Under the pieces are notes generated by a model. The model worked only from the letters and a program-made list of their open reading frames with translations. It had not been told where the DNA came from and made no database searches. A stretch of 64,000 nt of DNA from Haloterrigena turkmenica DSM 5511 (GTDB lineage Archaea; Halobacteriota; Halobacteria; Halobacteriales; Natrialbaceae), in assembly GCF_000025325.1 (NCBI RefSeq), contig NC_013743.1, forward strand, positions 1,550,001 through 1,614,000, read 5' to 3'. Positions within the stretch are counted from its first letter, which is position 1. Each line of letters begins with the position of its first letter. This document shows, piece after piece, positions 4,548-34,492 of the stretch. Position numbers and translations under genes: made by a program.

Positions 4548-7286
4548 ATGACTGAGGCGGGCCAATCCGGACTCACGGACTTCGGCGGCGAGTCCGACGA
4601 CGCGGACGAGCGGCCGGAGGAAGAGGCGGTTGCCGTCGCCGGCAACGGCGGCTCGAGCGCCGCCGAAGTAATCGACGTAATCGAGGAGACCCTGCCCGAA
4701 TCGCAGGGGGAACTCGAACTCGCGGTGATGCAGGTCGATTACACCATCGCGGGCTACGGCGACGAGGAGCGGCCGATCATGCACGTCTTCGGGCGCACGC
4801 CCGACGAGACGCTCGAGCACGTACAGATCGTCGGCTTCCAGCCGTACTTTTACGCGCCGACGGACAGCCTCGAGCAAGCGCCCGAGGAGCAGTACGACCG
4901 GCTGACGGGCAGCCGAGAGGTCGGCGAGGACGGCGAGCCCTACGAGAGCATCCGGGGAGAGGAACTCACCAAAATATTCGGCCAGACGCCCCGGGACGTC
5001 GGACAGATCCGCGATGATTTCGAGCACTACGAGGCCGACATCCTCTTTCCCAACCGGTTCCTGATCGACAAGGACATCCGCAGCGGGATGCGGGTGCCCG
5101 AACGCCGCGCCGACGACGACTCGCTCGTGGTTCCCCACGATGAGGTCGAGGCCGTCGACGTCGACGCCGAGCCCCGCGTCAACACGTTCGACATCGAGGT
5201 CGACGACCGCTCGGGCTTCCCCGAGGACGGCGAGGAGCCGATCGTCTGTCTCACCAGCCACGACTCCTACCGCGACGAGTACATCATGTGGCTCTACGAG
5301 GCCCCGATCGGCGACGGCCCGATCCCCGAGGAAATCGAGGAGTACGACCCGATCGAGGGCGAGATCGATCACGAGGTCCGCGCCTTCGAAGACGAAGAGG
5401 CGATGCTCGAGGCCTTCATCGAGTACGTCGAGGAGACCGATCCCGACGTCCTCACGGGCTGGAACTTCGAGGACTTCGACGCGCCGTACTTCCTCGACCG
5501 CCTCGAGGAACTCGAGGGGCCCCACCACGACTACGACCTCTCGATCGACCGCCTCTCGCGGGTCGACGAGGTCTGGCGCAGCAACTGGGGCGGTCCGGAC
5601 ATCAAGGGCCGAGTGGTCTTCGACCTGCTGTACGGCTACCAGCGGATGGTCTTCTCGGAACTCGACTCCTACCGGCTCGACGCCGTCGGCGAGGAGGAGT
5701 TGGGCGTGGGCAAGGAACGCTACGCCGGCGACATCGGCGACCTCTGGGAGGACGACCCCACGAAACTGCTCGAGTACAACCTCCGGGACGTCGAACTCTG
5801 CGTCGAACTCGACCGCCAACAGGAGATCATCCCGTTCTGGGACGAGGTGCGATCGTTCGTCGGCTGTAAACTCGAGGACGCCCCGACGCCCGGCGATGCG
5901 GTCGACATGTACGTCCTCCACGAGGCGTACGGCCGCTTCGCCCTCCCCTCGAAGGGCCAGCAGGAGGCCGGCGAGGAGTACGAGGGCGGCGCCGTCTTCG
6001 AGCCGATCACGGGCGTCAAGGAGAACGTCACCGTGCTCGACCTGAAGTCGCTGTACCCGATGTGCATGACGACGATCAACGCCTCGCCCGAGACGAAGGT
6101 CGACCCCGACGAGTACGACGGGGAGACCTACGTCGCGCCGATCGGCGACGACGAGATTCACTTCCGGAAGGAACCGGACGGCGTCATGCGCGAGATGATC
6201 ACCGAGTTGCTCGCCGAGCGCGAGGAGAAGAAGGAGCTGCGAAACGAGCACGAGCCCGGGAGCCTCGAGTACGAGCAGTACGACCGCCAGCAGGGCGCGG
6301 TGAAAGTCATCATGAACTCGCTGTACGGCGTCTCCGGCTGGGAACAGTTCCGGCTGTACGACAAGGAGGCCGCTTCGGCGATCACCGCGACCGGGCGCGA
6401 AGTCATCGAGTTCACGGAGACCGCCGCGAACGAACTCGACTATCAGGTCACCTACGGCGACACCGACAGCGTGATGCTCGAGCTGGGCCCCGAGATTTCG
6501 AAGGACGAGGCCATCGAGCAGTCGTTCGAGATCGAGGAGCACATCAACGGCCGCTACGACGACTTCGCGCGAGAGGATCTGAACGCAGAAGCCCACCGCT
6601 TCCAGATCGAGTTCGAGAAGCTCTATCGGCGGTTCTTCCAAGCGGGCAAGAAGAAACGTTACGCCGGCCACATCGTCTGGAAGGAAGGCAAGGACGTCAA
6701 CGACATCGACATCGTCGGCTTCGAGTACCAGCGCTCTGACATTGCGCCAATCACCAAGGAGGTCCAACACCGGGTCATCGAGATGATCGTCCGCGAGGGC
6801 GACGTCGAGGGCGCCAAGGAGTACGTCAACGGGATCATCGAGGACGTCCGCACGGGCGACATTTCCCTCGAGGAGATCGCCATTCCGGGCGGGATCGGCA
6901 AGCGCCTCGATAACTACGACACCGACACGGCACAGGTTCGCGGCGCGAAGTACGCGAACCTGCTGTTGGGGACCAACTTCCAGCGCGGGAGCAAGCCCAA
7001 GCGCCTCTACCTCGACCGCGTCGATCCGTCGTTCTTCGCGCGACTCGAGGACGAAGGGAAATTCGACGCTCGAACCGATCCCCTCTACGGCGCGTTCAAG
7101 CGTGACCCTGACGTGATCTGCTTCGAGTACGAGGATCAGATTCCGCCGGAGTTCGAAGTCGACTACGACAAGATGCTCGAGAAGACCCTGAAGGGACCGA
7201 TTTCGCGGATCCTCGAGGCGCTGGACGTCTCGTGGGACGAAGTGAAAAGCGGCCAGGAGCAGAAAGGCTTAGACAGCTTCATGTAG
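4548..7286 (+). CDS. polB: Family B replicative DNA polymerase, intein-free
   Basis: DNA-directed DNA polymerase of 912 residues. The 3'-5' exonuclease carries Exo I FDIEVD (Asp215, Glu217) and Exo II GWNFEDFDAPYF. Polymerase motifs are A DLKSLYP (from Asp498), B KVIMNSLYG (from Lys586) and C YGDTDS (636-641). The C-terminus QKGLDSFM is a PIP box (Q905, L908, F911) for the PCNA clamp. The open frame runs to 4431, but the ATG at 4548 (MTEAGQSGLTDFGGE) is the likely start, because the upstream 39 residues are not halophile-like. Inteins that often interrupt haloarchaeal polB at motifs A and C are absent. Confidence 0.96.
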   Translation: MTEAGQSGLTDFGGESDDADERPEEEAVAVAGNGGSSAAEVIDVIEETLPESQGELELAVMQVDYTIAGYGDEERPIMHVFGRTPDETLEHVQIVGFQPYFYAPTDSLEQAPEEQYDRLTGSREVGEDGEPYESIRGEELTKIFGQTPRDVGQIRDDFEHYEADILFPNRFLIDKDIRSGMRVPERRADDDSLVVPHDEVEAVDVDAEPRVNTFDIEVDDRSGFPEDGEEPIVCLTSHDSYRDEYIMWLYEAPIGDGPIPEEIEEYDPIEGEIDHEVRAFEDEEAMLEAFIEYVEETDPDVLTGWNFEDFDAPYFLDRLEELEGPHHDYDLSIDRLSRVDEVWRSNWGGPDIKGRVVFDLLYGYQRMVFSELDSYRLDAVGEEELGVGKERYAGDIGDLWEDDPTKLLEYNLRDVELCVELDRQQEIIPFWDEVRSFVGCKLEDAPTPGDAVDMYVLHEAYGRFALPSKGQQEAGEEYEGGAVFEPITGVKENVTVLDLKSLYPMCMTTINASPETKVDPDEYDGETYVAPIGDDEIHFRKEPDGVMREMITELLAEREEKKELRNEHEPGSLEYEQYDRQQGAVKVIMNSLYGVSGWEQFRLYDKEAASAITATGREVIEFTETAANELDYQVTYGDTDSVMLELGPEISKDEAIEQSFEIEEHINGRYDDFAREDLNAEAHRFQIEFEKLYRRFFQAGKKKRYAGHIVWKEGKDVNDIDIVGFEYQRSDIAPITKEVQHRVIEMIVREGDVEGAKEYVNGIIEDVRTGDISLEEIAIPGGIGKRLDNYDTDTAQVRGAKYANLLLGTNFQRGSKPKRLYLDRVDPSFFARLEDEGKFDARTDPLYGAFKRDPDVICFEYEDQIPPEFEVDYDKMLEKTLKGPISRILEALDVSWDEVKSGQEQKGLDSFM

Positions 7287-27103: not shown

Positions 27104-28351
27104 ATGGCCGCTGTCCCCGCGTCGGTCGAGTTCCTCGCCGAGCCGTCGCTGACGCTGGGACTGCTCGCGTGGATCCTGGCCGGCGCGGCGCTCGGCTGCT
27201 GTAGCGGGCTCGTTCCGGGGCTCCACGCGAACAACTTCGCCCTCCTGCTCGCCGGCTTCGCGCCGTCGATCCCCGGCCGGCCGCTGTTCGTCGGCTGTGC
27301 GATGCTCGCGGCGGGGGTCGTCCACACGTTCGTCAACGCCGTCCCCGCGATGGCGCTCGGAGTGCCCGACGCCGAGATGGCGATCACCGCGCTGCCGGGT
27401 CACCGGCTTGTCCTCGAGGGCCGGGGCTACGAGGCGATCCGGCTCTCGGCGCTGGGCAGTCTGCTCGCGGTCCTCGCGGCGGTCCCGCTCGCCGTCCCGG
27501 TCACGCGGGGCGTGACGGCCGCATATCCGACGATCCGGACCCACCTCTCCGTCGTGCTGGCGATGGTCGTCGTCGCGCTGATCGCGTCGGAACGGACGTG
27601 GCGGACCCGCCTCGGCGGCCTGGTTTCGTTCGCGCTCGCCGCGACGCTCGGGGTCCTGACGCTCGATCTCGCGACGGACGCGCCCCTCGAGGCCGGCGGG
27701 ATGCTCGCGCCGCTGTTCGCGGGCCTGTTCGGCGCGCCGGTGTTGATCGACGCGATCCGCGGCGGCGGGGTGCCGCCACAGCGCGACGAGTCGATCGCGA
27801 TGTCGCGCCCGCTCGTCGGCGCGACGGCGATCGCCGGAGCGCTGGCGGGCGCCGTGGTCGGCTACATCCCGGGCATCTCGGCGGCGATCGCCGCCGTCGC
27901 GGTCCTGGTGGTCGTCCCGGGCCGATCCGGCGACCGCGGCTACATCGTCGCAACGAGCGGCGTCGACACGGCGAATACGATTTTCGCGCTGTTCGCCCTG
28001 GCCGCCATCGGTCAGCCCCGGACCGGCGTGATGGTCGCCTTCGACACGGTGAACGCTCCCCTCGAGTTGCCGGTGCTGGTCGCCGGAATCGTCCTGGCCG
28101 GCTGCGTCGGTTTCGTCCTCGTGATCGTCGTCGGCGACGTCTATCTCGACTTCGTCGGTCGGACGGCCTACTGGAAGATCTCGGTCGCCGTCCTCGCCCT
28201 TCTGTGCTGTCTCTCGTATCTCTTCACGGGATTCGTCGGGATCGGCGTCTTCGCCGTCGCGACCGCGATCGGGCTGGTCCCGATTCGCGTCCGCGCTCGA
28301 CGCGTCCACCTGATGGGCGTGCTGATCGGTCCCTTGCTGATCGGGAGCTAA
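27104..28351 (+). CDS. TctA/DUF112-family transporter permease, orphan
   Basis: Membrane protein of 415 residues with about ten hydrophobic helices. The two inverted halves carry the TctA-type signature loops SGLVPGLHANN (about 36-46) and GYIPGISAAIAA. In bacteria TctA works with TctB and a periplasmic binding protein TctC in tricarboxylate uptake. Neither partner is encoded nearby, so the substrate and mode are open. It is convergent with the BtpA-family gene, with a four-base overlap of the 3' ends (stop codons share 28348-28351). Confidence 0.85.
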   Translation: MAAVPASVEFLAEPSLTLGLLAWILAGAALGCCSGLVPGLHANNFALLLAGFAPSIPGRPLFVGCAMLAAGVVHTFVNAVPAMALGVPDAEMAITALPGHRLVLEGRGYEAIRLSALGSLLAVLAAVPLAVPVTRGVTAAYPTIRTHLSVVLAMVVVALIASERTWRTRLGGLVSFALAATLGVLTLDLATDAPLEAGGMLAPLFAGLFGAPVLIDAIRGGGVPPQRDESIAMSRPLVGATAIAGALAGAVVGYIPGISAAIAAVAVLVVVPGRSGDRGYIVATSGVDTANTIFALFALAAIGQPRTGVMVAFDTVNAPLELPVLVAGIVLAGCVGFVLVIVVGDVYLDFVGRTAYWKISVAVLALLCCLSYLFTGFVGIGVFAVATAIGLVPIRVRARRVHLMGVLIGPLLIGS

Positions 28352-29184
28352 TCGGCCATCGAGTCCCGGCTCGAGACCAGCGCTTTGACGCGCTCGCGCG
28401 AGACGGGATTCGTCGTCTCGCCGCCCTCCTTCAGCGCCGTGCCGACGATGACGCCGTCGGCGCCGGCCGCGAGACAGTCGCCGACGGTCTCGCTCGTGAC
28501 GCCGCTGCCGACGAACACGGATGTGCGCCCGGCGGTTCCGGCTCCGTCCAGCGCAGCCGCGACCCGTTCGACGTCCTCGAGTGCGGTCTCGTCGCCGGTT
28601 CCGGGGCCCGAGACGATGACGCCGTCCGCGCGGCCGCGCTCGACCGCCTCGAGGGCCGCTCGGTCGATCGAGCGGTCGCCGATCGGCGTCGCGTGCTTGA
28701 CGTGGACGTCCGCGAGGATGGCTACGTCGGCGTCGATTCGGTCGCGGAGTCGGAGCGTCTCGTGGGCTCGGCCCTCGAGGACGCCCTGATCGGTCGCCGC
28801 GGTGCCGACGTGGACGTTCACGCGGACGAATTCGGCGTCGACGGCCGCGGCGATCGAGAGGGCGGCATCGGCGTCGTTCCGAAGGACGTTGATCCCGAGA
28901 GGGACATCGACGGCGTCGGTCACTGCCGTCGCGACGGCGGTCATCTCCGCTACGACGTGCTTGGGGACGTCGTCAGGATAGAACGGCGCGTCGCCGAAGT
29001 TCTCGAGCACGATCCCGTCGACGCCGCCGGCCTCGAGGCGACGGGCGTCCTCGAGGGCGCGGTCGCGGACGGCGTCGCGGTCGCCTTCGTATCCCGGTGC
29101 ACCCGGAACGGGCGGGAGGTGGACCATTCCGACGACGGGCCGATCGGCGTCGAACCGCGTACGGAGCGGCGTAATCGCGGGCAT
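28348..29184 (-). CDS. BtpA/SgcQ-family TIM-barrel protein
   Basis: Protein of 278 residues from ATG 29184 (MPAITPLRTRFDADRPVVGM). Family stretches are GMVHLPPVPGAPGYEG, GGVDGIVLENFGDAPFY, VNVHVGTAATDQG, LADVHVKHATPIGDRSI and GADGVIVGTALKEGG. The family is named for a photosystem I biogenesis factor, but archaeal and SgcQ members are thought to be sugar or nucleoside metabolic enzymes. TATA CTTATCT (minus strand) is about 27 bases upstream, so the start is leaderless and the 62-residue upstream extension is rejected. Confidence 0.88.
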   Translation of the reverse strand: MPAITPLRTRFDADRPVVGMVHLPPVPGAPGYEGDRDAVRDRALEDARRLEAGGVDGIVLENFGDAPFYPDDVPKHVVAEMTAVATAVTDAVDVPLGINVLRNDADAALSIAAAVDAEFVRVNVHVGTAATDQGVLEGRAHETLRLRDRIDADVAILADVHVKHATPIGDRSIDRAALEAVERGRADGVIVSGPGTGDETALEDVERVAAALDGAGTAGRTSVFVGSGVTSETVGDCLAAGADGVIVGTALKEGGETTNPVSRERVKALVSSRDSMAD

Positions 29185-29326
29185 AGCGGTCTTGACACCG
29201 CCAGCGAGATAAGTGGTCGTAGATAGCCTCGGCGCAGCGTCGGACCCCGACGCGAGTCGGTCCGTGCTCTCCGCCGCCGAACCGGGTGACGGAGGGCTTA
29301 ACTGGGGGACCGGGCTCTCTTCGAGC

Positions 29327-30070
29327 ATGCAGATCGAGGGAACCGCACTCGTCACCGGCGGCTCTGGCACGGTGGGGCGGGCGATCGCGACGGAACTGGC
29401 TCGAGCGGGCGCGGACGTCGCGGTCGGCTACCACACCGACGAGGCCGGTGCGGAGCGGACCGCCGACGTCGTCGAGTCCAGCGGGCGAACGGCGACGGTC
29501 GTCGGCGGAGACGTCGCCGATATCGACGACGCAAGGGCGCTGGTCGACGGCGCCGCCGAACTGGGTCCGCTGTCGACGGTCGTCAACGCCGCCGGCATCG
29601 TCGCCCCGGGTCCGGCCGAGTCCGCGCCGTCGCGAGTCGGCGACGTCCTCTCGACCAATCTCGAGGGGGCGATCAACGTCGCGGCGGCCGCGGTCGATCC
29701 GCTTCGCGAGACCGAGGGGGCGATCATCAACGTCGGCAGCGTCGCGGCCGAACTCGGAACGGTCGACGTCACGTACGCGGCCTCGAAAGGAGGCCTCGTG
29801 GGAGCCACGCGAGCGCTGGCTCGCGAACTCGGTCCCGACGGGATCCGCGTGTCGGCAGTTGCACCCGGCCCCGTCGACACGCCGATGAACGACGAGATCA
29901 CCGAATCGCTCGAGGAACGGCGCTTCCGGGGCCATCACACCGTCGACACGCTCCTCGATCGCTACGAGGCGACGCCGGCGGAGGTCGCGACGGCGGTCCG
30001 GTTCCTCGCGACCCACGAGTTCGTGACGGGAGAGGTGCTCCGCGTCGACGGCGGCATGTCGATCGACTGA
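29327..30070 (+). CDS. Short-chain dehydrogenase/reductase (FabG-like)
   Basis: Protein of 247 residues from ATG 29327. The NAD(P)-binding motif TGGSGTVG is at residues 10-17, NAAG near 87-90, the catalytic Ser at 138 and YxxxK at Y150-K154. PG after the active site and a C-terminal LRVDGG-type end are present. The form is that of 3-oxoacyl-(ACP) reductases and related alcohol dehydrogenases. The substrate is not shown by sequence. Its 3' end faces the LuxC-like gene, so it could in principle act on the aldehyde made there, but that is only context. Confidence 0.88.
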   Translation: MQIEGTALVTGGSGTVGRAIATELARAGADVAVGYHTDEAGAERTADVVESSGRTATVVGGDVADIDDARALVDGAAELGPLSTVVNAAGIVAPGPAESAPSRVGDVLSTNLEGAINVAAAAVDPLRETEGAIINVGSVAAELGTVDVTYAASKGGLVGATRALARELGPDGIRVSAVAPGPVDTPMNDEITESLEERRFRGHHTVDTLLDRYEATPAEVATAVRFLATHEFVTGEVLRVDGGMSID

Positions 30071-30085
30071 GCGGTACCGGCGGCG

Positions 30086-31462
30086 CTACGCCGGATCGTA
30101 GGTGGTCGTCTCGTAGAGGAACGACGCGAGGTACGTCTCGTGGGTCTCCCGGAGGTCGACGCTCGCGGGATAGCCGCCGCCGTAGACCTTTCTGAACGCG
30201 GGCGAACGAACCAGCCGCCGTTCGAGGTCGTCGTCGCCGATCGCGACCGCGAGGTAGGCGCCCTCGAGGCAGTCCGGCAGCGCCGACCGCTCGCGTTCGG
30301 TCACGCCGACGAACGGGAACGGGAACTCGGGCACGAGTTCGTCGGTTCGGAGGACGGTGGGTAGCAGTCGGGCGGCGCCGGCCCGCTCGACGAGGCGCGT
30401 CTCGCGGTCGGCCGCGGTGACGTCCGTTCCGTCGATGGCCGTGATCGCGTCGTCGATTCGGACGGCCGCCTCGCGATCGACGAACCCGGGAACGTCGGTG
30501 CGCTCGTCGTGAAGCGGGCCCGCGTCGGCCTCGGCCAGCCGATCCGCCACTCCCTCGGCGAGGGCGTCGGGATCGCAGTCCCCGGTCGCGACGATACGGG
30601 TGAGATTGAAGCAGGCCCGTCCACCGGCGCGGCGGACGCCGCGGGCCAGCGTGTCCAGTTCCCGGTCCGTCGGATCGCGGCCGAGGATCGCGATACTCTC
30701 TCCGGGCCCGTACGTCTCGACGGTCGGATCGTCTCGAAACGGCGCGACCGCCTCGGCGCCGCCGAACGCGAGGGCGTGGTCGGCCTCCCGACAGATCGTC
30801 TCACCAACGGCCCGATCGCCCGGCAGGACGTGGACCGCCGTCGGCGGGATCCCGGCGGCGAGCAGCGCTCGAGCCAGCCGGATCGCGGTGAACGGCTCCC
30901 GATCCGAGGGACGGAGGACGATCGGAATCCGCATCCCGAGCGCCAGCGCCGGCCACGCGTAGACGGTGGGATCGTTCGCCGGCATCGACGCGCCGAGGGC
31001 CCGGACGCGTGGGGTGAACGCGAGTCCCACGGTCGTCTCCCGCGTGTAGGTCGGATCGCCGTAGACGTCGAGTTCGCCGGTCGGCGACTGCGCCCGGAGC
31101 GACTCGGCGGCGTGTCGGAGCCCGACGGCGAGCCAGTGGGCGCTCGTTCGGACCCAGCCGGCCGGCAGCCCCGTCGTCTCGGTGACGCGTCGGCGGTACG
31201 TCTCGAACGGCTCGAGCGAATCGGTGCTGGCTGACGGAGCGCCCTCGCCGAGGAACAGCGCGCCCGCGGTCGCGAGGCGGTCGAGCAGTTCCGCGATCGG
31301 AACGTCTGCGAGGGCGTCGAACCCCGCCTCTCGAGCGATCGAGAGCGCGTCGTGGACGCGGACGGTCGGCGCCCGCGCCGCCTCGGCGACGGGACCGTCG
31401 GTCCCCTCGACCGTCGTCGACCGGACCGTCTCCCGCTCGCCGTCGGAGACGACCGGGAGCAC
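30086..31462 (-). CDS. LuxC-like acyl-CoA reductase / aldehyde dehydrogenase superfamily protein
   Basis: Protein of 458 residues, close to LuxC length. ALDH-superfamily fold marks are MPANDPTVYAW (about 160-170), IVLRPSDREPFTAIRLARAL where the usual ALDH Lys reads Arg184, and the nucleophile Cys284 in GGRACFNLTRIVATG. It would reduce an activated acyl group (CoA or enzyme thioester) to an aldehyde with NAD(P)H. GTG start 31462 lies one base after the TGA of the LuxE-like gene, so the two are coupled. An ordinary ALDH role cannot be ruled out. Confidence 0.75.
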   Translation of the reverse strand: MLPVVSDGERETVRSTTVEGTDGPVAEAARAPTVRVHDALSIAREAGFDALADVPIAELLDRLATAGALFLGEGAPSASTDSLEPFETYRRRVTETTGLPAGWVRTSAHWLAVGLRHAAESLRAQSPTGELDVYGDPTYTRETTVGLAFTPRVRALGASMPANDPTVYAWPALALGMRIPIVLRPSDREPFTAIRLARALLAAGIPPTAVHVLPGDRAVGETICREADHALAFGGAEAVAPFRDDPTVETYGPGESIAILGRDPTDRELDTLARGVRRAGGRACFNLTRIVATGDCDPDALAEGVADRLAEADAGPLHDERTDVPGFVDREAAVRIDDAITAIDGTDVTAADRETRLVERAGAARLLPTVLRTDELVPEFPFPFVGVTERERSALPDCLEGAYLAVAIGDDDLERRLVRSPAFRKVYGGGYPASVDLRETHETYLASFLYETTTYDPA

Positions 31463-31463
31463 G

Positions 31464-32549
31464 TCAGTACACCCCTTCGACGGCGTCCTCGCTCGCTCGG
31501 TCGCTCGTACCCGGCGTGCGGACCCAGTCCCACGGCAGGTCGCCCGCCCCTTCGATCCGGATCGCCGCGTCGCGCTCCGGCAACAGTGGGAGGAAGAACT
31601 CCTCCGTCAGGACGGTGAGTCGCACCGTTCCCCGCTCGCCGTAGGGGACGACGTCGCCGTCGTCGTCGACGATCTCCGGGACGAAGTACGGGTAGCAGGG
31701 GACGTAGTCGAGGTGGTACGCTCGCTCGGACGGCGCTCGGAGCGACGGCGGCGCCTCCGGGGCGACGCCCATCAGCGTGTTGCCGTACTCGCCGGCGAGG
31801 GCGACGTCCGCGTACCACTCCTCGCGGAAGACGCGGTGGGTGTCCCGATCGAGCGCGGTGCCGCCGTGGACGATCCCCTCGATCGAGGAGTCGGCGACGA
31901 GGTCCCGAACGCGCGGCCGCTCGAGCAGACGCGCCGTCGTGAACAGCACCGCGATCGGCTGACTCTCGAGGACGCGCTCGGCCTGCTCGAGGAGGTGGTC
32001 GACGTAGTCGTCGAACTCGCGGTCGTCGGGTCGCTCGGAGAGGCGCTTGGCCCATCGGGGGTCCATCGTCACGTGGTACGGCAGCGCGTCCCATTCGTGG
32101 GCGAGGTGCTGGACGAACGTGCCGGCGTTGTTCGCGCCGCCCGGCGGGGCCAGTCCGAGGACGTTCCCGGTCGGGAACTCCCACTCCGCCAGCAGACGGG
32201 CCGTCCAGCGGGCCTGCTCGCGCCAGTAGTCTCGCATGACGACCCGCTTCGGCGCGCCGGTCGTCCCGCCGGTCTCGTAGACGCGCCGATCGCCGTCGAG
32301 CGACTGCGGCGCGAACTCCGCGGCGGAGAGCGTTCGGAGGACGTCCTGGTCGAACGGGTCGAAGACGTCCCGGAGGTCCGCGAACGAGTCGACGCGTTCG
32401 CGAACGTCGATTCCGCGGTCGTCCTGCCACTCGAGCCAGTAGGGGGTGCCGCCGTCGGGATCGAAGTGGGTCGCGACCACGGTTTCGACCCACTCGTCGA
32501 GCGTGGCGTCGGTCGGTGCGTGCGGGTTCGTGTACGTCGTCTCCATCAT
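31464..32549 (-). CDS. LuxE-like / phenylacetate-CoA-ligase-type adenylate-forming enzyme
   Basis: Protein of 361 residues, shorter than PaaK (about 430) and near LuxE (about 370). The ATP/phosphate loop TGGTTGAPK is at residues 93-101. Further family stretches are GLAPPGGANNAGTFVQHLAH, GIVHGGTALDRDTHR, GEYGNTLMG and YGERGTVRLTVLTEEFFLP. It would activate a carboxylic acid as acyl-AMP and pass it on as a thioester. Two ATGs stand side by side at 32549 and 32546. Position in the operon is directly before the LuxC-like reductase and 40 bases after the symporter. Confidence 0.78.
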   Translation of the reverse strand: MMETTYTNPHAPTDATLDEWVETVVATHFDPDGGTPYWLEWQDDRGIDVRERVDSFADLRDVFDPFDQDVLRTLSAAEFAPQSLDGDRRVYETGGTTGAPKRVVMRDYWREQARWTARLLAEWEFPTGNVLGLAPPGGANNAGTFVQHLAHEWDALPYHVTMDPRWAKRLSERPDDREFDDYVDHLLEQAERVLESQPIAVLFTTARLLERPRVRDLVADSSIEGIVHGGTALDRDTHRVFREEWYADVALAGEYGNTLMGVAPEAPPSLRAPSERAYHLDYVPCYPYFVPEIVDDDGDVVPYGERGTVRLTVLTEEFFLPLLPERDAAIRIEGAGDLPWDWVRTPGTSDRASEDAVEGVY

Positions 32550-32589
32550 GATGGTGAGTGTGATCGTCTGTTCGTGACGTGAGGTGGAG

Positions 32590-34029
32590 TCAGGACCTGT
32601 TCGTCGCTACGAGCGCGGTCGTCTTCGACTGCGCTGAAAGCAGCGATCCGGCGACGAGGGCGCCACAGGCGACGAGCAGCGCGGGGACGAACGGGAGGAA
32701 CGCGAACGACGGCGCGGGACCGAACTCCGCCGCGACGAAGTACGCCTGGCCGCAACACACCGACGCCAGCGCGCCCCACGCGGAGGCCCGCCGCCAGTAC
32801 AGCGCGCCGAGGAACGCCGGAAGCAACAGCGCGTTCCCCTGGATGAAGTAGACCGCGAGGTCGATGATAGTCCCCTGCTGGACGAGCGCGATCGCCAGCC
32901 CGAAGCCCAACAGGACGACCGCGGTCAGCCGGCCGACCCACGTCTCCCTGCCACTGCTCGCGTCCGGGTTCAGGTGGGCGCGATACAGGTCTCGGGAGAC
33001 GATCGACGACAGCGTGAGCACGAGGCTGTCGGCCGTGCTCATCATCGCCGCGAGGGCGCCGCCCATGACGACGCCGAAGATCCACGGCGGCGCGTGCGCC
33101 GAGAGCAGCGCCGGCAGGATCGCGTCCGGGTCCTCGAGGCCGGGAATCGCCGCGGCGCCCCACACGCCGAGGAGGACGGGGACGAGCGCCGCGACGACGA
33201 CCATCACGGGCCACCAGACGAGCAGCGACCGAAACGCGCGCTCGTCCTCCGCGGCGAGGAACCGCTGGAACATCTGCGGGTAGGCGATCATCGCCATCGC
33301 GTTCATCAACAGGAACGAGACCCACACGCCGGGGGTGAAGAGGCCGAGTTCGCCCGCCGGCGTCAGCAGCTCGGTCTCGCCGGCCAGCTCCGCCGTCACC
33401 GCGGCGGGCTCGAGCGCGGGGAGCAGGTAGCCGATCGCACCCCCGAGGAGGACGACGACCGCGACGCCCTGCAGGACGTCGGACCAGGCGACGCTCCGAA
33501 GCCCGCCGAGCGTGAGATAGATTCCGGTGACGACGGTGAGCAGGACCGCGCCCTGCGTGAACGTGATCACACCGTCGGTGATGGACTCGAACAGCAGGCC
33601 GCCGCCCATCGCCTGGATCGCGAGGTACGGAATCGCCCAGACGAACTGCGCGACGAGGACCGCCAGCTTCACCGCGTCGCTGTCGTAGGCCGTACCGATC
33701 AGTTCCGTCGGCGTGAGAAAGCCCCGATCGCGGCCGACCCGCCACACGCGGAGGCCGATCAGCGCGAGCGGGATCCCGGCGACCGCCTCGACGCCGAGGA
33801 GCGCGAACCACCCCATTCCGTGCTGGTATCCCCAGCCGGCGCTCCCGAGGAAGATGAAGGCGCTCATCAGCGTCGCGAACATCGTCAGCGGGAAGACGAC
33901 CCGTCCGAGGGTTCCCCCCGCGAGGAAGTACTCGGCCGGCGTCGTCCCCGTCCGGACGTATCCGTACCAGCCGATCGCCAGCGTCGCGACCAGATAGAGG
34001 CCGACGATGGCGAGGACTGTTCCGTTCAT
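32590..34029 (-). CDS. Sodium:solute symporter (SSS family)
   Basis: Membrane protein of 479 residues with about 13 helices. SSS stretches include EYFLAGGTLGRVVFPLTMFA near the N-terminus, LGGLRSVAWSDVLQGVAVVV in the core and GALAAMMSTADSLVLTLSSI with the Na-site Ser residues, then SRDLYRAHLNPDASSGRETW. The subclass with a DUF3311-like partner often transports monocarboxylates. Its ATG overlaps the end of the small upstream gene (ATGA), and the ligase gene follows after 40 bases. This suggests it imports the acid that the ligase activates. Confidence 0.9.
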   Translation of the reverse strand: MNGTVLAIVGLYLVATLAIGWYGYVRTGTTPAEYFLAGGTLGRVVFPLTMFATLMSAFIFLGSAGWGYQHGMGWFALLGVEAVAGIPLALIGLRVWRVGRDRGFLTPTELIGTAYDSDAVKLAVLVAQFVWAIPYLAIQAMGGGLLFESITDGVITFTQGAVLLTVVTGIYLTLGGLRSVAWSDVLQGVAVVVLLGGAIGYLLPALEPAAVTAELAGETELLTPAGELGLFTPGVWVSFLLMNAMAMIAYPQMFQRFLAAEDERAFRSLLVWWPVMVVVAALVPVLLGVWGAAAIPGLEDPDAILPALLSAHAPPWIFGVVMGGALAAMMSTADSLVLTLSSIVSRDLYRAHLNPDASSGRETWVGRLTAVVLLGFGLAIALVQQGTIIDLAVYFIQGNALLLPAFLGALYWRRASAWGALASVCCGQAYFVAAEFGPAPSFAFLPFVPALLVACGALVAGSLLSAQSKTTALVATNRS

Positions 34030-34241
34030 CGTCCCTCACCCGGCCAGCCGTAGCCGATTCCCGCGATCGCGGCGACGACGACGGTCGCGAGCATTGCGAG
34101 CAACGCCACCATCGACCAGAGCGGAAACACGCCGACGATCGGTTCGACGGGCGCGTACACCGACGCGGCCATCACCGCAAACAGTCCACCGAAGACGATC
34201 CAGAGACCGCGCTCGAGGCGGCCGTCAGTCGAAGTCTTCAT
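34026..34241 (-). CDS. Small membrane subunit beside SSS symporter (DUF3311-like)
   Basis: Protein of 71 residues with two hydrophobic helices (WIVFGGLFAVMAASVYAP and LWSMVALLAMLATVVVAAIA) and the short motif EPIVGVFPLW. Size, fold and 4-base overlap with the symporter fit the DUF3311 partners of SSS monocarboxylate carriers. TATA GGTTATACAAC (minus strand) lies about 25 bases before the ATG, making this the promoter of the four-gene operon. Confidence 0.8.
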   Translation of the reverse strand: MKTSTDGRLERGLWIVFGGLFAVMAASVYAPVEPIVGVFPLWSMVALLAMLATVVVAAIAGIGYGWPGEGR

Positions 34242-34492
34242 AATTGAGTTGTATAACCGCGTTTGGACGATTTGAATCTGTTGACCGGCGCGTCGCTCGA
34301 TCGCTCCCGCGGAACGGACGTGCGGTGGTCACGGCCGCGAGACCGACGAGTACGCGCTGCGCACGGACCGCGTCACGCCGATATCCAGGCGGTACAAACC
34401 GGCTCGCGCCGCCGCGCCGCTGCGCCTTCGAAACGGGCAATCCCCGCTCCCTCCACGGTCGTTTTCCCGCCGCCGTGAGTACTACCGCGCCG

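Follow-up and report, generated by a model that had tools for sequence, protein, structure and literature searches.

In the LuxC/LuxE system of luminous bacteria, the acyl group is activated as an AMP ester and then reduced with NADPH in a Cys-dependent manner, and the carboxylic acid reductases (CARs) of Nocardia and Mycobacterium carry adenylation, carrier, and short-chain dehydrogenase/reductase (SDR)-type reductase domains in one large polypeptide. Adjoining genes, ehpF and ehpG, encode a two-protein system in Pantoea; the paper on the EhpF structure reportedly proposed that EhpF and EhpG make 6-formylphenazine-1-carboxylate, and phenazine-1,6-dicarboxylate is among the substrates of characterised pairs. 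6-Formylphenazine-1-carboxylate is a recognised phenazine intermediate (PMC11477647), and the adjoining ehpF and ehpG genes of Proteus are 1062 and 1371 bases long, corresponding to 353 and 456 residues (PMC11278526). In the grixazone pathway, 3-amino-4-hydroxybenzoate is converted by GriC into its acyl-AMP, from which GriD forms the aldehyde by reduction (PMC10179220). Here, we describe a gene cassette in a stretch of 64,000 nucleotides of Haloterrigena turkmenica DSM 5511 (NC_013743.1; hereafter the window, to whose positions gene coordinates refer unless another locus is named), consisting of genes for a small membrane protein, a sodium:solute symporter (SSS), a truncated adenylating enzyme (the ligase), an acyl-adenylate reductase, and a convergent SDR. 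It probably serves to import a carboxylic acid and to reduce it stepwise to the aldehyde and then the alcohol, a reading to which we give a probability of roughly 60%. The H. turkmenica 4k genome comprises 5,440,782 bases in seven contigs, six of them plasmids (PMC3035258). The locus is composed as follows.

34242..34275, minus strand: putative archaeal promoter, read from the sequence, with the AT-rich box GGTTATACAA upstream of the small gene's ATG
34026..34241, minus strand: small membrane protein, presumed DUF3311-like partner of the symporter, 71 residues
32590..34029, minus strand: sodium:solute symporter (SSS, PF00474), 479 residues
31464..32549, minus strand: truncated ANL adenylating enzyme of the EhpF/GriC type, 361 residues
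30086..31462, minus strand: acyl-adenylate reductase of the EhpG/GriD type, aldehyde dehydrogenase (ALDH) superfamily, 458 residues, GTG start
29327..30070, plus strand: convergent SDR oxidoreductase, proposed aldehyde reductase or alcohol dehydrogenase, 247 residues

An initial annotation of this DNA had proposed a four-gene operon, and all four open reading frames (ORFs) were confirmed on the minus strand at these coordinates, together with the short distances of 1–40 bases claimed for them (a 4-base overlap of the symporter and small genes, and gaps of 40 bases between symporter and ligase and of 1 base between ligase and reductase). The SDR gene ends 15 bases from the reductase stop in convergent orientation. 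The GC content of the cassette stretch (69–73%) is in the same range as that of its surroundings, and conservation at the protein level in other genomes shows that the ORFs did not arise by chance. The one clear promoter that had been assigned to the operon is supported in part: a TATA-like AT-rich box is located ~15–20 bases upstream of the first ATG, and similar boxes are found upstream of other haloarchaeal cassette copies, whereas a promoter/terminator scan of the locus, whose models are bacterial and thus uninformative for archaea, returned no promoter.

Ligase and reductase

The ligase belongs to the EhpF family of truncated adenylating enzymes. EhpF is its one strong relative of solved structure by sequence, matched by phmmer across residues 18–342 (E = 6e-38; ~30% identity), and a profile of 32 ligase-family members, searched against solved structures, gave EhpF with an E-value of 1.9e-120, the next family being PaaK (2.6e-8). 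The same order was obtained by Foldseek with the AlphaFold model of the ligase (mean pLDDT, 81; pTM, 0.82), in which the top five hits were EhpF (best E = 2.7e-27), followed by PaaK (2e-15). Three motifs, ETGGTTGAPK (residues 92–101, P-loop), YGNT (255–258), and ERD (325–327), are nearly invariant in the family alignment; the Pfam AMP-binding model matched 29 of the 32 members at E < 0.01, with the window ligase under the cut-off. The adenylate-forming enzyme seen in the initial annotation is thus borne out by sequence and fold. The ligase ends in EGVY, and a conserved Gly-(Val/Leu)-Tyr terminus is located just past the N-terminal domain in all 32 members, which, like the window protein, lack the C-terminal ANL domain for CoA thioesterification. 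Because of this absence, the expected product would be an acyl-AMP without formation of a CoA ester. PaaK, which had been named as an alternative, is disfavoured by the missing domain and by a score of 12.9 bits against the cut-off of 700 for the curated acyl-CoA ligase model paak_haloarch.

Likening the ligase to LuxE proved mistaken: the LuxE Pfam model matched none of the 32 family members, and the sole Cys residue (Cys285) is away from the C terminus and conserved only among the haloarchaeal cassette members, which speaks against a LuxE-type acyl-Cys relay. The protein sizes that had suggested LuxE and LuxC are indeed similar to those of the luminescence proteins, but they fit EhpF/EhpG-type pairs at least as well; EhpF/EhpG and GriC/GriD, pairs of the same size with the same chemistry, had been overlooked. 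Homologues of the ligase in Streptomyces are named arylcarboxylate reductase, and the Halalkalicoccus copy is annotated as a hypothetical protein. As a separate observation, a Streptomyces plasmid carries such an EhpF-type 'arylcarboxylate reductase' ligase gene (L008:7938–9023) followed directly by a type I polyketide synthase gene and without an ALDH-type reductase, so placed that ligases of this kind may also load polyketide starter units.

The reductase is an EhpG-type relative of ALDH, not LuxC. The Pfam Aldedh model matched the window protein (E = 1.6e-12) and all 34 reductase-family members, whereas LuxC (PF05893) reached 14.7 bits in the window protein, under the gathering cut-off of 21, and matched 5 of the 34 members at E < 0.01, so that the LuxC-like label had to be given up. 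The structure model (pLDDT, 87) shows the ALDH fold. In an alignment to the hydrolytic ALDH KauB, Cys284 (present in 34 of 34 members) and Asn163 (33 of 34) align with the ALDH nucleophile and the oxyanion Asn, respectively, identifying the Cys of the initial annotation as an ALDH-type nucleophile. At the position of the ALDH general-base Glu (ELGGK-type motif), the window protein has Tyr251, the haloarchaeal proteins have Tyr, and the bacterial ones mostly His; Glu is found in none of the 34. The lack of this Glu is expected in acyl-transferring and acyl-reducing members of the superfamily and argues against oxidation of an aldehyde to the acid; since the Glu for acyl-enzyme hydrolysis is absent, the reductase should run reductively. 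The Arg noted at the position of the usual ALDH Lys (Arg184) is present, but it was dropped as an oddity, both residues being common there (Arg in 15 and Lys in 19 of the 34 members).

Gene order in haloarchaea and bacteria

The symporter matched PF00474 along the full length of the profile (positions 1–406 of 406; E = 6.5e-40), confirming its family; the nearest named model, TIGR02119 (panF), gave 185 bits, under its cut-off of 328. Its sequence is 63–97% identical to those of the other haloarchaeal cassette copies and 24–31% identical to the SSS proteins of the bacterial operons described below. The name DUF3311-like for the small protein has support by position, as bacterial genes at the same place match PF11755 (DUF3311; E = 1.8e-5 and 2.7e-7, one barely above the cut-off), but the window protein itself gave no Pfam match. 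The pyruvate symporter gene mctP has a DUF3311 gene beside it with which it shares its regulation (PMC9100948), an arrangement that fits carboxylate transport in general. The SDR matched Pfam adh_short_C2 (E = 3e-46), with the TGGSG cofactor motif and the Ser/Tyr/Lys residues conserved.

Nine haloarchaeal cassette loci from several genera were compared (the window, L012, L022, L023, L006, L015, L014, L007, and L021). The order of small gene, SSS, ligase, and reductase with the convergent SDR is kept in all nine, so that the neighbourhood is conserved, and the reductase and SDR genes are 11–46 bases apart in eight loci and ~600 in one. Because of this conserved convergent linkage, the SDR is counted as part of the cassette; it had been regarded as a possible extra that could take the aldehyde further, and probably does so as a member of the conserved unit. 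In one draw of 390 Halobacteria genomes, the ligase was present in 8 (~2%), as seven cassettes and one distant relative, and it occurs in four of the six genomes of the window's genus. It is also found on a Halomarina plasmid, and the cassette of Halalkalicoccus jeotgali lies on plasmid 2 near a transposase gene. Genes for BtpA, TctA, OYE, cupredoxin, and MscS are common neighbours only within the genus, and the flanks otherwise differ; the BtpA, TctA, OYE, and cupredoxin genes were rejected as cassette parts on this ground. Since the five genes are constant while the flanks vary, and in view of the plasmid and transposase setting, the cassette is a compact unit that has probably moved between genera.

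Some features of the flanks were observed in passing. At 28348–29370 (minus strand) and 27104–28351 (plus strand) of the window, a BtpA/SgcQ-family gene (281 bits, TIGR00259) stands beside a TctA-type transporter gene. In a sister species (L023), a gene for the 5,6-dimethylbenzimidazole synthase BluB (6146–6841, minus strand; TIGR02476, 277 bits) lies between the BtpA-family gene and the SDR, where the sister loci L012 and L022 have a gap matching BluB in size; BluB is missing at ~29208–29327 of the window, and none was found in the H. turkmenica genome. The haloarchaeon G301 has a distant second ligase–reductase pair (L020:9282–11789; 26% and 34% identical), without SSS or SDR, whose neighbours, named by eye, are AMP-ligase-like, asparagine-synthetase-like, and ABC transporter genes; it is possibly a natural-product locus in an archaeon.

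A profile scan of genome contigs gave at least 80 bacterial loci, and the following counts, obtained by clustering, apply among the matches listed. The loci are mostly from Verrucomicrobiota, and also from Planctomycetota, Acidobacteriota, Armatimonadota, and Actinomycetota. The reductase gene directly follows the ligase gene in 57 of the 70 loci with enough sequence, the SSS gene is just upstream of the ligase gene in 29 of 67 bacterial loci, and an iron alcohol dehydrogenase (Fe-ADH) gene, identified with Pfam, comes after the reductase in 36 of the 50 loci reaching far enough. SSS, ligase, and reductase occur in the same order in Verrucomicrobiota, Planctomycetota, and Armatimonadota, usually with Fe-ADH next, and a DUF3311 gene precedes the SSS gene in some loci. 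When the SSS of an Armatimonadota operon was used as the query in a single protein search of the H. turkmenica genome, the window SSS was the best hit (169 bits; the next, 142 bits), a mild sign that the transporters of the two operons may be specifically related. In the trees, the haloarchaeal ligases make up a single, fully supported clade, and so do the haloarchaeal reductases. The reductases of the haloarchaeal cassette and of the second haloarchaeal type group with bacteria on the Planctomycetota–Verrucomicrobiota–Chlamydiota (PVC) side, not with EhpG; the deep order of the ligase tree is weakened by long branches.

Two further recurrences were seen in the bacterial loci. In Verrucomicrobiota and one Planctomycetota locus (L037, L038, L040, L046, L047, L049, L053–L055, L057, L061, L062, L067, L087, L095, and L101), the ligase, reductase, and Fe-ADH genes are surrounded by genes for a HemN-like radical S-adenosylmethionine (SAM) enzyme, a presumably chorismate-lyase-like protein (so labelled from sequence motifs and a weak PDB match), a CmlS-like FAD enzyme, a GT4 glycosyltransferase, and a 4HBT thioesterase; this recurrent set may form a so far undescribed cluster for the biosynthesis of an aromatic compound. 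Proteins of a single cluster, two or three per locus and by eye pyrroloquinoline quinone (PQQ)-like beta-propellers, are encoded upstream of the operon in L090, L072, L048, L027, L031, and L088 and were seen in many Verrucomicrobiota; a role as periplasmic redox partner is conceivable.

Proposed pathway and competing explanations

In the proposed pathway, the SSS and its small DUF3311-like partner would import a carboxylate with Na+, and the ligase would convert it with ATP into the acyl-AMP. The acyl group would then be transferred onto Cys284 of the reductase and released as the aldehyde with NAD(P)H, and the SDR would finally reduce the aldehyde to the alcohol. Analogy lends good support to the conversion of the acid through an acyl-AMP into the aldehyde, because two-component carboxylic acid reductases are known in EhpF/EhpG and GriC/GriD; the sequence originally put forward, from uptake through adenylation to aldehyde formation, is also the best reading. 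The alcohol step is added because the SDR linkage is conserved and Fe-ADH holds that place in bacteria, two independent pointers to such a final step. For the substrate, the best guess is an acid of aromatic or heteroaromatic type, since the characterised pairs take 3-amino-4-hydroxybenzoate and phenazine-1,6-dicarboxylate. What the sequences show is the gene order, the families, the missing domain, the residues, and their conservation; from these we infer the direction of the SDR, every enzyme activity, and the substrate. More tentatively, with chances a little short of even, we propose that haloarchaea and several bacterial phyla have in common a so far undescribed pathway that imports an environmental carboxylic acid through a dedicated Na+ symporter and reduces it with ATP and NAD(P)H to its alcohol, the final step being left to alcohol dehydrogenases that are unrelated to each other, an SDR in the archaea and Fe-ADH in the bacteria.

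Several points weigh against import and reduction. The SDR gene is read from the other strand, and the functions of SDRs vary widely. The SSS family handles many solutes and the PanF model stayed under its cut-off, so the symporter may carry a solute other than the substrate of the ligase, and 35 of the 67 bacterial loci lack an SSS gene by the clustering used. The ligases of haloarchaea stand apart as a separate clade with a long branch and may differ in substrate from the characterised ones.

Two other explanations are both unlikely. The cassette could serve oxidative catabolism, with an alcohol oxidised by the SDR or Fe-ADH, the resulting aldehyde converted into the acid by the ALDH, and the acid turned by the ligase into an acyl-CoA to be degraded. 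In favour of this, alcohol dehydrogenase, ALDH, and acyl ligase are a common catabolic set, SSS symporters often feed catabolism, and haloarchaea are heterotrophs. However, all ligase members lack the thioesterification domain, no reductase has the general-base Glu, no gene with an evident role in degradation accompanies the cassette across genera, and the characterised relatives act reductively. Alternatively, the cassette could be a biosynthetic module for a secondary metabolite or part of a cofactor, its aldehyde being an intermediate that is condensed or modified by enzymes encoded elsewhere; the pathways to griseoluteic acid and grixazone are of this kind. The known pairs do belong to pathways for antibiotics and pigments, in many bacterial loci the next genes are of the radical SAM, chorismate-lyase-like, FAD, glycosyltransferase, and thioesterase types, and the second haloarchaeal pair (L020) adjoins AMP-ligase-like, asparagine-synthetase-like, and ABC transporter genes; yet the haloarchaeal cassette holds only uptake and reduction genes, without biosynthetic neighbours conserved across genera.

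That the transporter and the two enzymes are chance neighbours or act on different substrates is improbable: SSS genes are common and many bacterial EhpF/EhpG-type pairs have none adjoining, but the order of small protein, SSS, ligase, and reductase recurs in the nine haloarchaeal loci from several genera with differing flanks, and that of SSS and ligase in at least 29 bacterial loci. A LuxC/LuxE-type fatty acid reductase giving a long-chain aldehyde, which would share the general chemistry and protein sizes, is very improbable, membership having been rejected as both models fail and no luxD, luxA, or luxB being among the neighbours scanned.

Comparison with known systems

A literature search on carboxylic acid reductase in haloarchaea returned nothing relevant, in line with the earlier statement that no described haloarchaeal pathway of this kind was known, and no description of the transporter/SDR-coupled cassette or of the PVC-type operon of SSS, ligase, reductase, and Fe-ADH was found in a limited literature search. 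Both enzymes add to a family already known, and only the transporter/SDR-coupled haloarchaeal version and its PVC bacterial counterpart appear undescribed. An unannotated ligase gene thereby becomes a testable component of an archaeal carboxylic acid reductase, and EhpF/EhpG chemistry, known from antibiotic and pigment pathways, is tied to a transporter-coupled operon that archaea share with widespread bacteria of which little is understood. Two-component carboxylate reductases that tolerate salt could also find use in biocatalysis.

EhpF of Pantoea agglomerans (PDB entries 3hgu, 3hgv, and 3l2k), from the D-alanylgriseoluteic acid pathway, is the best PDB match of the ligase and has the same truncated ANL fold and length; EhpG, encoded next to it, is an ALDH-type reductase of the size of the haloarchaeal one. 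The ehp genes belong to a phenazine cluster with a major facilitator superfamily (MFS) transporter, and a ligase–reductase pair is likewise located inside a phenazine-type cluster in Burkholderia ubonensis, whereas the haloarchaeal pair, a clade of its own, is accompanied by the SSS, DUF3311-like, and SDR genes without adjoining phenazine genes. GriC/GriD of Streptomyces griseus are a two-component carboxylic acid reductase working through an acyl-AMP (PMC10179220), as proposed for the present pair, but they stand in a biosynthetic context without uptake genes, and their homology to the haloarchaeal pair is indirect. LuxE and LuxC belong to other sequence families, and the C-terminal Cys through which LuxE passes on the acyl group is absent from the haloarchaeal ligase. 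CAR performs the same ATP- and NADPH-dependent conversion of acid to aldehyde as proposed for the cassette, which differs in consisting of two proteins with an ALDH-type reductase. The operons of Verrucomicrobiota, Planctomycetota, and Armatimonadota resemble the cassette in gene order and in their homologous ligase and reductase, in some cases with DUF3311 before the SSS, but Fe-ADH replaces the SDR, other genes often surround them, and their symporters are only distantly similar to the haloarchaeal one.

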